Shown piece by piece: positions 5,043-58,894 of a DNA stretch of 64,000 nucleotides (positions are counted from its first letter, which is position 1; every line of letters begins with the position of its first letter). The stretch spans positions 310,001-374,000 of the forward strand of contig NZ_FNKQ01000003.1 of assembly GCF_900100875.1 (NCBI RefSeq), written 5' to 3'. Below the pieces are notes generated by a model that was given only the letters and a program-made list of their open reading frames with translations, had not been told where the DNA came from and searched no databases. This DNA comes from Halopelagius longus. GTDB lineage: Archaea > Halobacteriota > Halobacteria > Halobacteriales > Haloferacaceae. A program made the position numbers and the translations under genes.

Positions 5043-5364
5043 TGTTTCTTCGGCGAACGAAGTGAGCCGAGAAACATCTATCGAGGGCGATTCGAAGCAG
5101 GGAGCGAACGGAGTGAGCGACCGAGGTTCGAATCCGCCCGAGCCCACTAAAATCCGTGAGCGACAGCGAACGGTATTTTCGTGACGAGAGGGCGGTTAGA
5201 ACCTGACGACGAGTGAGCGTAGCGAACGAAGTCGGCGTGGTTCGAATCCGCCCGAGCCCATGATTCTGCGGCGAACGAAGTGAGCTGAGAATCATCTACC
5301 GAGGGCAATTCGAAGCAGGGAGCGAACGGAGTGAGCGACCGAGGTTCGAATCCGCCCGAGTCTA
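5043..5364 (+). repeat. Three tandem tRNA-Val tail units, each with two hairpins
   Basis: Copies of the tRNA-Val 3' end (GGTTCGAATCC through the acceptor strand) lie at 5125-5146, 5239-5260 and 5343-5364. The original is at 5021-5042, giving spacings of 104, 114 and 104 nt. The first two copies are exact and the last ends GTCTA instead of GCCCA. Each unit opens with a perfect or near-perfect hairpin, for example ATGTTTCT...AGAAACAT at 5042-5077. It continues with an inverted partial copy of the tail (GGGCGATTCGAA) that pairs with the tail itself across a loop containing GAGCGAACGGAGTGAGCGA. No gene is visible in this stretch. Confidence 0.85.
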
Positions 5365-10142: not shown

Positions 10143-10258
10143 CTTCTCTGAACCCGACCGCCGAGCGAAGCGAGCACGGCGGGTTCTGTAAGTGGTACCC
10201 GACCGGATTCTGAACCAGCGAGCGTCAGCGAGTGAGGTTCAAATCCGGGAGGCGGCAC
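10143..10258 (+). repeat. tRNA-Phe tail unit with two hairpins
   Basis: The last 22 nt of tRNA-Phe (10121-10142) recur exactly at 10236-10257, 115 nt downstream. The unit holds hairpin one, GAACCCG...CGGGTTC with loop GAGCGAAGCGAGC, and hairpin two, CCGGATTCTGAACC pairing with GGTTCAAATCCGG of the tail copy across a loop containing GCGAGCGTCAGCGAGTGA. The architecture matches the units after tRNA-Val and tRNA-Ser although the arm sequences differ. The tail copy overlaps the left end of the island's direct repeat. Confidence 0.82.
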
Positions 10259-57109: not shown

Positions 57110-57318
57110 ACGTGCGGCCGCGAACGAAGTCCGCACTCCTGTGGGGCGCTATCGGCTGTTTCAGCTTTCTCGCCGCCCTGCAGGGGTATCGGCTCCTCGT
57201 CGGTCCGTTGTCGTTCGGCGTCCTCGGCTCTCTCGTCGTCGCCGTCGTCGTCGGCGGCGTCGTCTCCGGCGTGACGTACGCCACCGAGCGCCGTATCGCC
57301 ACGAAAGGAAGGACTTAA
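57106..57318 (+). CDS. Small membrane protein coupled to ridA
   Basis: A 70-residue protein starting at GTG 57106, inside the ridA stop codon. It has two membrane helices: LLWGAIGCFSFLAALQGYRLL and LSFGVLGSLVVAVVVGGVVSGVTY. The start is basic (MNVRPRTKS) and the tail is basic (ERRIATKGRT). The GTGA overlap strongly supports translation with ridA. I do not recognise a family. Confidence 0.7.
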   Translation: MNVRPRTKSALLWGAIGCFSFLAALQGYRLLVGPLSFGVLGSLVVAVVVGGVVSGVTYATERRIATKGRT

Positions 57319-57347
57319 ACTACTCAACGGGATACGTTGAACTGTAA

Positions 57348-57428
57348 GCCGGGATGGCCGAGTGGTAAGGCGCACGCCTGGAAAGCGTGTTCCCTTTGGG
57401 ATCCAGGGTTCAAATCCCTGTCCCGGCG
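57348..57428 (+). tRNA. tRNA-Ser (anticodon GGA)
   Basis: The acceptor GCCGGGA pairs with TCCCGGC, the anticodon stem CACGC pairs with GCGTG around CTGGAAA (anticodon GGA), and there is a long variable arm (TTCCCTTTGGGATC) as expected for Ser. The discriminator is G57428 and CCA is not encoded. Its last 22 nt are repeated downstream three times. Confidence 0.95.
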
Positions 57429-57862
57429 CTTCTCTAACTTCTAACCCCCGAGCGAGGCGTTTATCGCCGAGCGTACGCGGTAGAAGTTTGCAAGCGATTA
57501 CGACGGGATTTGAACCCTACCAGTCGCGCGCAGCGAACGTAGTGAGCGAGCACGTCTGGTTTCGGTTCAAATCCCTGTCCCGGCGCTTCTTCGGAAACTG
57601 ACCGCCGAGCGAGGCGTCTCGTCGCCGAGCGACGCCGGTCGAGTTCGGTGAACGTCTACGGACGGATTCGAACTAGGGAGCGACTGAAAGGAGCGACCGT
57701 AGTTCAAATTCCTGTCCCGGCGCTTCTCTCACTTCTAACTCCCCAGCGAGGCGTTTCATCGCCGCGAGTACGCGAGTAGAAGTTTGCGAGCGGTTACGAC
57801 GGGATTTGAGCCAACGAGCAGATCTTCGATTTGCGAGTGAGGTTCAAATCCCTGTCCCGGCG
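57429..57862 (+). repeat. Three tandem tRNA-Ser tail units, each with two hairpins
   Basis: Tail copies (GGTTCAAATCCCTGTCCCGG plus CG) are at 57564-57585, 57701-57722 (two changes) and 57841-57862, spaced 157, 137 and 140 nt. Each unit begins CTTCT. Unit one has a hairpin (CTTCTA...TAGAAG with GGCG/CGCC inside), then CGGGATTTGAACC, the inverse of the tail. This pairs with the tail copy over a loop carrying ACCAG...CTGGT and CAGCGAACGTAGTGAGCGAG. The other units follow the same plan with drifted sequence. The last 50 nt before the next gene start another CTTCT unit that is cut short. Confidence 0.85.
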
Positions 57863-57910
57863 CTTCTCTAACCCCTGATCGAGGCGTCTCGCCGAAAACG
57901 AAGCGACGAG

Positions 57911-58894
57911 TCAGTCGTCGGATTCCGGGATGAACGGTCCGTACACCGCCGTTTGGTGGGCGATCGTCGCCACGCGGAGGATGTACGCGCTCAGTATCGC
58001 GAGGGGGACGAGCGTCGCGACGATTATCGCCCCCGCGACACCGACGAGTGCGGCGTGCGGCAGCGTCAGACCGGCGATGTCTCGATACGAGAAGATACCT
58101 ATCGTGGCGACGGTCACCGCGGGGACGCCGGTGTAGACGAGGAGTCGTGAGAGACGCGCCAACTGCCGTTCGACGACCACCGTTTTGAGGAACTGCCGCG
58201 CGGCGTCGACTTCGACGAACAGTTCGGTGATCCGTTGTAGCTCTTCGGCCGTCTCCGCGTCGGAATCGGAGAGTTCCGCCTGAATTCGTCGAACGTCGTG
58301 GAACTGCCCCGAATTACGGTAATCGAGCATCGTGAGGAACGTCCGGAGCATGCTCGTGTCGTCGGCCGCCAACTCGTCGTTCGTCCGTTCCGCTTCTTCG
58401 ATGACCGACTGGGTTATCTCCGCGACGTCGTTCGCCACTCGCTCGTCCGCCCGCGAGCGGTCGAATCGGTCCTGAGCCGTTCCGGCGGCGTCCGAGACGG
58501 CGGAGAGGAGCGTTCCGAAGAAGGGTGACGCGTGCGGCGAACTCACCGAGGTCCCGGTTCGGTCTTCGACGCGCTCTCGAAAGTCCGTGATGTCGGTCCG
58601 GCGTTCGTAGAGGTCCTGTACGGAGCCGAACTCGTGAGAGAGGACGATCTGGTTCACGCCGACCGTAATCGGGACGAGCGTCAGGAGGCCGTTGACGGTG
58701 CCGTTGAGGTACCACATCACCCGGTTCGGCGTCGTCACCGTGGCGAGGTCGAGAATCCCGACCGCGAAAAACGCCGCGCCGACCCCGAAGAGTAAGACGA
58801 GCGAAACGAGGAGTCGATCACCCGAGAGCAGGAACCACCGTGTGAGTCCCGTAATCGGACGGTGGTCGGCCGAGCCTTCGGTCGTGTCCGCCAT
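57911..58894 (-). CDS. Four-TM haloarchaeal membrane protein, paralog 2
   Basis: A 327-residue protein homologous over its full length to the product of 7335-8393: two N-terminal membrane helices (LLSGDRLLVSLVLLFGVGAA; then NGLLTLVPITVGVNQIVLSHEF), a helical soluble domain of about 170 residues, and two C-terminal helices (LLVYTGVPAVTVATIGIFSY; LVGVAGAIIVATLVPLAILSAY) ending with YILRVATIAHQTAVYGPF. The shared motifs VNQxxLSxEF, DFRxxxExR and YILRxAT define the family, which I cannot name. The stop is 48 nt after the tRNA-Ser tail array. The start at 58894 is preferred over one five codons upstream. Confidence 0.78.
   Translation of the reverse strand: MADTTEGSADHRPITGLTRWFLLSGDRLLVSLVLLFGVGAAFFAVGILDLATVTTPNRVMWYLNGTVNGLLTLVPITVGVNQIVLSHEFGSVQDLYERRTDITDFRERVEDRTGTSVSSPHASPFFGTLLSAVSDAAGTAQDRFDRSRADERVANDVAEITQSVIEEAERTNDELAADDTSMLRTFLTMLDYRNSGQFHDVRRIQAELSDSDAETAEELQRITELFVEVDAARQFLKTVVVERQLARLSRLLVYTGVPAVTVATIGIFSYRDIAGLTLPHAALVGVAGAIIVATLVPLAILSAYILRVATIAHQTAVYGPFIPESDD

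Follow-up and report, generated by a model that had tools for sequence, protein, structure and literature searches.

A probably mobile family of short hairpin units behind haloarchaeal tRNA genes

Results

An array of three units behind tRNA-Ser(GGA)

The stretch of Halopelagius longus DNA analysed here (the window, 64 kb) contains a tRNA-Ser(GGA) gene that is followed on the same strand by three tandem units of 157, 137 and 140 nt. In many named haloarchaea this tRNA gene lies 3' of a RidA-like gene. Each unit closes with a copy of the tRNA tail, a 21-nt sequence (GTTC...GGCG) spanning the T-loop (base 53) to base 73, the 3' end of the mature tRNA. The layout is shared by the units and runs from a pyrimidine-rich start through a first hairpin, an inverted arm and an inner hairpin to the tail copy. 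The features of the array are:

57348-57428, + strand: tRNA-Ser(GGA) gene, own tail at 57408-57428 (ARAGORN call, 57348-57429)
57436-57488, + strand: unit 1, first hairpin, defined by its fold
57504-57516, + strand: unit 1, inverted arm, the reverse complement of the T-loop and the 3' strand of the T-stem
57565-57585, + strand: unit 1, tail copy, same sequence as the tRNA tail
57603-57650, + strand: unit 2, first hairpin, defined by its fold
57664-57674, + strand: unit 2, inverted arm, imperfect
57702-57722, + strand: unit 2, tail copy, 1 substitution
57731-57783, + strand: unit 3, first hairpin, defined by its fold
57800-57812, + strand: unit 3, inverted arm
57842-57862, + strand: unit 3, tail copy, same sequence as the tRNA tail

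A first-pass annotation of this region had described four regularly spaced tails (157, 137 and 140 nt apart), a CTTCT opening to each unit, a two-hairpin plan and an inverted arm able to pair with the tail copy, and our analysis bears out each of these features. The tails start at 57408, 57565, 57702 and 57842 (spacings of 157, 137 and 140 nt), CTTCT stands at the start of all three units, the arms lie at the positions listed above, and the two-hairpin plan is real and is seen again behind many other tRNA genes. Arm and copy pair over 12 positions in units 1 and 3 (including one G.T in unit 3), and unit 3 is similar to unit 1. The same annotation read unit 2 as a case of paired drift between tail and arm, which is true of one compensated pair, a change from G-C to A-T beside the T-loop; against this, the first eleven positions also include one mismatched pair (A.C) and one wobble pair (G.T). 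Moreover, the unit 2 arm fits the tRNA's own tail about as well as it fits the copy. An Rfam scan of the array returned no family except tRNA above the gathering score, and the rtT model was unmatched in 57300-57950 among Rfam matches up to E 1.

The window holds further units behind two other tRNA genes, three at tRNA-Val(TAC) and one at tRNA-Phe(GAA):

5043-5146, + strand: tRNA-Val(TAC) unit 1, with hairpin 5043-5076, arm 5085-5096 and tail copy 5126-5146
5147-5260, + strand: tRNA-Val(TAC) unit 2, with arm 5190-5203 and tail copy 5240-5260
5261-5364, + strand: tRNA-Val(TAC) unit 3, with hairpin 5261-5294, arm 5303-5314 and tail copy 5344-5364
10143-10257, + strand: tRNA-Phe(GAA) unit, with hairpin 10150-10186, arm 10203-10216 (one extra base) and tail copy 10237-10257

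Distribution among tRNA genes and genomes

We scored a tRNA locus as carrying a copy where a 17-nt part of its tail recurred with at most 3 edits at a distance of at most 600 nt. By this one rule, downstream copies are present at 25 of 44 tRNA loci in this genome (G000) and at 19 of 44 in a congener (G001), 44 tRNAs having been used in each, from 45 and 46 Rfam matches. In three further genomes (G082, G126 and G071), the corresponding values are 17/31, 11/29 and 18/29; these genomes were picked for their many cores (see below), so that their rates are no fair sample, and 30 loci were fetched from each, of 50, 48 and 44 tRNA matches. Pooled over the five genomes, 90 of 177 tRNA loci have downstream copies, compared with 11 in the upstream control, 7 in antisense and 3 when the tail of another tRNA was used. 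A set of tRNA-Ser relatives, nearly all of them tRNA-Ser genes, has copies at 25 of 69 tRNAs and was, like G000 and G001, selected independently of the core. Across the five genomes, units occur at 28 of 41 isoacceptors, a count that was made, as were the best-tail fraction and the loop, G.T/A.C, fold-energy and neighbour counts below, with a finder that missed some array copies (the main tests agree with a corrected finder).

A search that was blind to tRNAs tells of a similar association. The 19-base core of the units, GGATTTGAANCAGGGAGCG, has matches in 76 of 391 haloarchaeal genomes, and its reversed control pattern in none of the same 391. In a phylum-wide draw, the core was present in 12 of 81 haloarchaeal genomes and in none of 311 genomes from outside the haloarchaea. 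We checked the tRNA neighbourhood of 30 mixed loci chosen by their core (L170-L199), together with the sole core of this genome that is distant from a tRNA (G000:C1:40647). All 30 fetched loci follow a tRNA gene at a distance of 21-282 nt, on the same strand and at many isoacceptors, and the distant core belongs to a tRNA-Arg(CCG) unit that was displaced 27.8 kb by an integrated element. In 41 of 205 units no generic core could be recognised. The unit family appears to be haloarchaea-wide. No unit was recovered from phage and virus collections, and a plasmid search gave one partial match and nothing more. Pattern matches on 14 viral contigs were set aside as chance, since they are mostly low-GC and coding-like and the remainder of the unit is missing.

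The integrated element at tRNA-Arg(CCG) (G000:C1:40722-68544; L307/L308) is 27.8 kb long, with a shared end of 13 bp and two tyrosine-recombinase domains just within that end. Its integration parted a hairpin unit from its tRNA-Arg(CCG).

Hairpin anatomy and strand

Both hairpins of a unit are built on one motif, in which 2 bp, a tandem G.A and 2 bp are closed by a tight loop. Among 169 units, which are mutually related so that motif and loop counts are not independent, the tandem-GA hairpin motif was found 138 times on the sense strand and 36 times on the opposite strand. This bias points to the folding of one strand. Fold energies are likewise better on the sense strand, in 126 of 169 units with RNA parameters and in 112 of 169 with DNA parameters; the mean z for RNA fold energy was -3.64 over 60 sampled units, and the energies do not discriminate between RNA and DNA.

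The loops are of a restricted kind. Triloops take the form C-GNA-G in 66 of 100 cases, and the tetraloops (n=29) include 21 GNYA and 2 GNRA. C-GNA-G and C-GNNA-G loops are very stable in DNA, whereas RNA prefers GNRA. In the duplex of arm and copy, G.T pairs number 103 and A.C mispairs 86 in an ungapped and therefore noisy alignment. The GNA and GNYA loop types, together with this modest ratio, argue against RNA helices. We tentatively suggest that the active form of a unit may be one folded strand of tRNA-sense polarity. That very stable short hairpins of DNA or RNA exist as a general idea is set out in the portion of PMC10527192 drawn on here.

Arm specificity and the fate of tail copies

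Most units, though not all, have an arm that can pair with the T-loop and T-stem of their tRNA. To score the arms, we placed them via a generic core and compared their fit to their own and to other tRNAs' tails over 2000 permutations. The scoring left out 9 of 214 copies whose units fell outside 60-230 nt, 41 of 205 units that had no generic core and 21 of 164 that were duplicates. With the rows treated as unrelated, and any kinship among them ignored, arms scored 19.89 against their own tail and 16.81 when permuted (sd 0.37; 0/2000; 143 rows, 61 tails). The difference persists within isoacceptors whose tails vary (19.72 vs 18.92, sd 0.14; 0/2000; 96 rows, 14 identities) and within tRNA-Ser(GGA) alone (20.50 vs 19.63, sd 0.22; 0/2000; 32 rows). 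Specificity is carried by positions 57, 59 and 62-65, with no signal at acceptor positions 66-68. A single case illustrates it: tRNA-Ser(TGA) has A57 in G000 and G57 in G001, and the difference is repeated in both copy and arm. The own tail is nonetheless the best or tied tail for a minority of units (0.23).

Where a copy has become unlike the tRNA tail, the arm mostly does not follow. Of 43 distinct units of this kind, the arm is closer to the tRNA tail in 33 and to the copy in 6, with 4 ties; counting substitutions only, the split is 16 to 5 with 3 ties, and testing arm fit against the preceding instead of the following tail gives 26 to 6 with 4 ties. Copies decay without compensation. Such drift seems to mean that pairing matters at arrival, or is set at that time, and has no later upkeep, and it is the pattern expected where pairing has its role during insertion, or where the arm goes with a tail that the unit itself carried in. 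The first-pass annotation had taken the paired drift of unit 2 as a sign that the stem matters, and had named arms changing independently in related genomes as evidence to the contrary. Its inference survives in that arms track tRNA tails across genomes, and fails in that drifted copies go uncompensated; independent change is thus found in part, the arm keeping to the tRNA tail in the proportions just given.

One extra T-loop base is present in fifteen copies at seven isoacceptors, nearly all of them reading GTTCA-C-AATC, and is perhaps a junction mark.

Turnover and relatedness

The units come and go between close relatives. For the 37 single-copy tRNAs common to this genome and its congener, units are present in both at 10, in neither at 12 and in one only at 15. 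Both tRNA-Tyr genes are filled in G000 and empty in G001, and the sequence that follows the copy at the filled site matches the one that follows the tRNA at the empty site. Similarity also extends across tRNA identities, as units at tRNA-Arg(CCT) and tRNA-Val(TAC) are 84% alike over ~82 nt (E 3e-18). At a Haloferax locus (L054), one unit type adjoins the tRNA and is followed by the type that other species have in first place, an order that fits accretion beside the tRNA and fits loss elsewhere as well.

For the first hairpin, the nearest neighbour lies at the same tRNA in another genome for 10 of 54 assigned units (2.2% expected), and most often the neighbour is found at a different tRNA (33 + 8 of 54); 33 more units have no neighbour. 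We reject these neighbours as proof of hopping between tRNAs, many of them resting on short shared GA motifs.

Tandem duplication also occurs inside arrays. Behind a tRNA-Leu(CAA) gene (L182, genome G317) there are four near-identical 87-nt units in tandem, in which arm complementarity extends into the acceptor strand and only the tail of the last copy is altered.

Several further observations concern the surroundings of the units. The tRNA-Tyr genes (L148 and L150 vs L020 and L021) have the T-loop AAATC in G000 and AATTC in G001, with units only where it is AAATC. In this genome, tRNA-Asp(GTC) (L024, G000:C3:459800-461100) and tRNA-Arg(GCG) (L035, 307000-308300) are duplicated, with units behind the copies. 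A second class of tail copy (L003, L006, L002 and other loci) starts at the T-stem (...ACTCCC...) and is missing the T-loop; it stands directly behind a GA-motif hairpin in opposite orientation and shares bases 61-73, as does the 13-bp element end. The base right after the mature tRNA is nearly always C or T (A and G at 0 to 1%), with units or with none and in all sets.

Discussion

A probably mobile family and how it might move

We conclude that the units form a fast-turnover, probably mobile family that has its limits at the T-loop and the 3' end of the tRNA and is equipped with a tRNA-matched arm. That this is a mobile family inserted at the stretch from T-loop to 3' end is likely. As would be looked for in a tyrosine-recombinase element at a tRNA gene, an identity block runs from the tRNA loop to the 3' end (21 nt, bases 53-73) and the tRNA is rebuilt, as in the comparison of filled and empty tRNA-Tyr genes.

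We hypothesize that the mobile form would be a self-folded single strand with tRNA-sense polarity, whose arm would pair with the unit's own tail, or with that of the target, to make a double-stranded T-arm core. A tyrosine recombinase supplied in trans could then join the unit at the T-loop of a tRNA gene, whereby insertion would rebuild the tRNA and displace the old tail downstream. Such a scheme would amount to the entry of integron cassettes at attI, with the tRNA gene standing in for attI. That the family is mobile and uses at least part of this folded-strand and recombinase mechanism is, in our estimation, nearly an even call. Taken singly, a single-stranded DNA intermediate is a tentative proposal, and a tyrosine recombinase as the enzyme is to be held just as tentatively. 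A search with PF00589 found tyrosine-recombinase domains in 7/7 unit-bearing genomes and also in 14/14 control genomes, which makes the former weak evidence; a reverse transcriptase was found in 1 of the 7 unit-bearing genomes and Cas1 in none. At 60-230 nt, the units are too short for an integrase gene and, unlike tyrosine-recombinase elements, encode no integrase, so that they would need to be non-autonomous. We saw no excised form of a unit and no mobilising enzyme linked to the units. In its fullest version, the proposal would describe an archaeal counterpart of the integron, with tRNA genes as docking sites at which gene-less hairpins are captured serially as folded single-stranded DNA and the arm reads the target, and in this full version we think it unlikely.

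Alternative explanations

Transcription of the units behind the tRNA as an RNA trailer, with hairpins that steer 3' processing of the pre-tRNA, termination or stability, would suit a folded strand of tRNA-sense polarity (138 vs 36 motifs; RNA energy in 126/169 units; mean z of -3.64 over 60 units), as well as fetched core loci that invariably lie right behind a tRNA. However, around half of the tRNAs have no units and 15 of 37 are discordant between congeners, no non-tRNA Rfam family reaches the gathering score, and the loops are GNA or GNYA and not GNRA, with a small G.T excess. Pairing kept by compensation is to be expected of a structured regulatory RNA, and what we find instead is uncompensated copy drift (33/6/4). 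An RNA role for the units is improbable.

We consider it quite improbable that the units are ordinary scars, either attachment-site repeats of larger integrative elements or products of tandem duplication, with hairpins that are incidental. One larger element, of 27.8 kb, has integrated here at tRNA-Arg(CCG), some arrays are near-identical in tandem (L182), and partial tRNA copies of such origin are reported from haloarchaea (PMC3119063). That element, however, shares 13 bp with its target and the units 21, and scars would have no arm, whereas a common inner core and a tRNA-matched arm recur at many tRNAs; the arm statistics already leave this explanation strained.

Duplication of the target site by a Cas1-like or other transposase, with the 21-nt tail produced by staggered joining in the manner of casposons, would account for a copy that fits any tRNA hit. 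According to the portion of PMC6977970 used here, casposases do integrate at tRNA 3' ends, with duplications of 14-15 bp, but this length is unequal to that of the tail and Cas1 is present in 0/7 unit-bearing genomes, leaving such an origin very doubtful. Lasting selection on the stem within each unit, as argued from paired drift, can point to one compensated pair in unit 2 and to arms that track tRNA tails across species, but is rendered highly improbable by the A.C mismatch and G.T wobble of the same unit and by arms that do not follow drifted copies (33 vs 6).

Significance of a probably mobile family

Genes for tRNA are classic landing sites of mobile DNA, for reasons that are still argued. 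A mobile family that has a T-arm-complementary arm, turns over fast and occupies 28 of 41 isoacceptors in five genomes would preserve past insertions as a natural record, and would offer a simple test system for single-strand recombination in archaea. If the integron-like reading were true, each unit would represent a minimal kind of mobile element that guides itself, with a guide matched to every tRNA it occupies. More generally, repeats behind haloarchaeal tRNAs are not necessarily tRNA pseudogenes or CRISPR-like arrays, and annotation should allow for this.

Comparison with known systems

A literature search found no earlier report of such units, which is not proof of absence. The closest arrangement is that of the rtT repeats at Escherichia coli tyrT, which are tandem units behind a tRNA gene, each of them repeating the 3' end of that tRNA. 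They resemble our units in being of similar length and in tandem behind a tRNA, but to our knowledge occupy one locus in E. coli, whereas the units stand at 28 of 41 isoacceptors in five genomes and have a tRNA-matched inverted arm. REP palindromic repeats are also short, extragenic and palindromic, but are not known to be associated with the 3' ends of tRNA genes or to correspond in sequence to the adjacent gene.

Archaeal integrative elements extend over kilobases and carry an integrase gene, in contrast to the units, which are gene-less and carry an inverted arm. The preference of archaeal integrases for the 3' parts of tRNA genes is described in the section of PMC8371274 drawn on here, and on that account elements and units are alike in using the tRNA 3' part, rebuilding the tRNA and displacing a tail copy. 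Casposons, as the portion of PMC6977970 cited above presents them, also insert at tRNA 3' ends and duplicate their target, but differ in their 14-15 bp duplication, terminal inverted repeats and Cas1, which was found in 0/7 genomes here.

Integron cassettes and the units are both short, stack behind a fixed site and set GTT on one arm opposite AAC. They differ in that the units are gene-less and their fixed site is a tRNA gene, and the integrase domain searched here was the general PF00589. The core sites of attC follow the consensus GTTRRRY / RYYYAAC, from which the unit tail departs in beginning GTTCAAA or GTTCGAA, with C as the fourth base. Cassettes enter as a single folded strand with a double-stranded core, in which sequence varies and structure is kept, as stated in the part of PMC2727003 consulted. 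We offer our model as an analogy to this process, and make no claim that the units are themselves members of the integrons.
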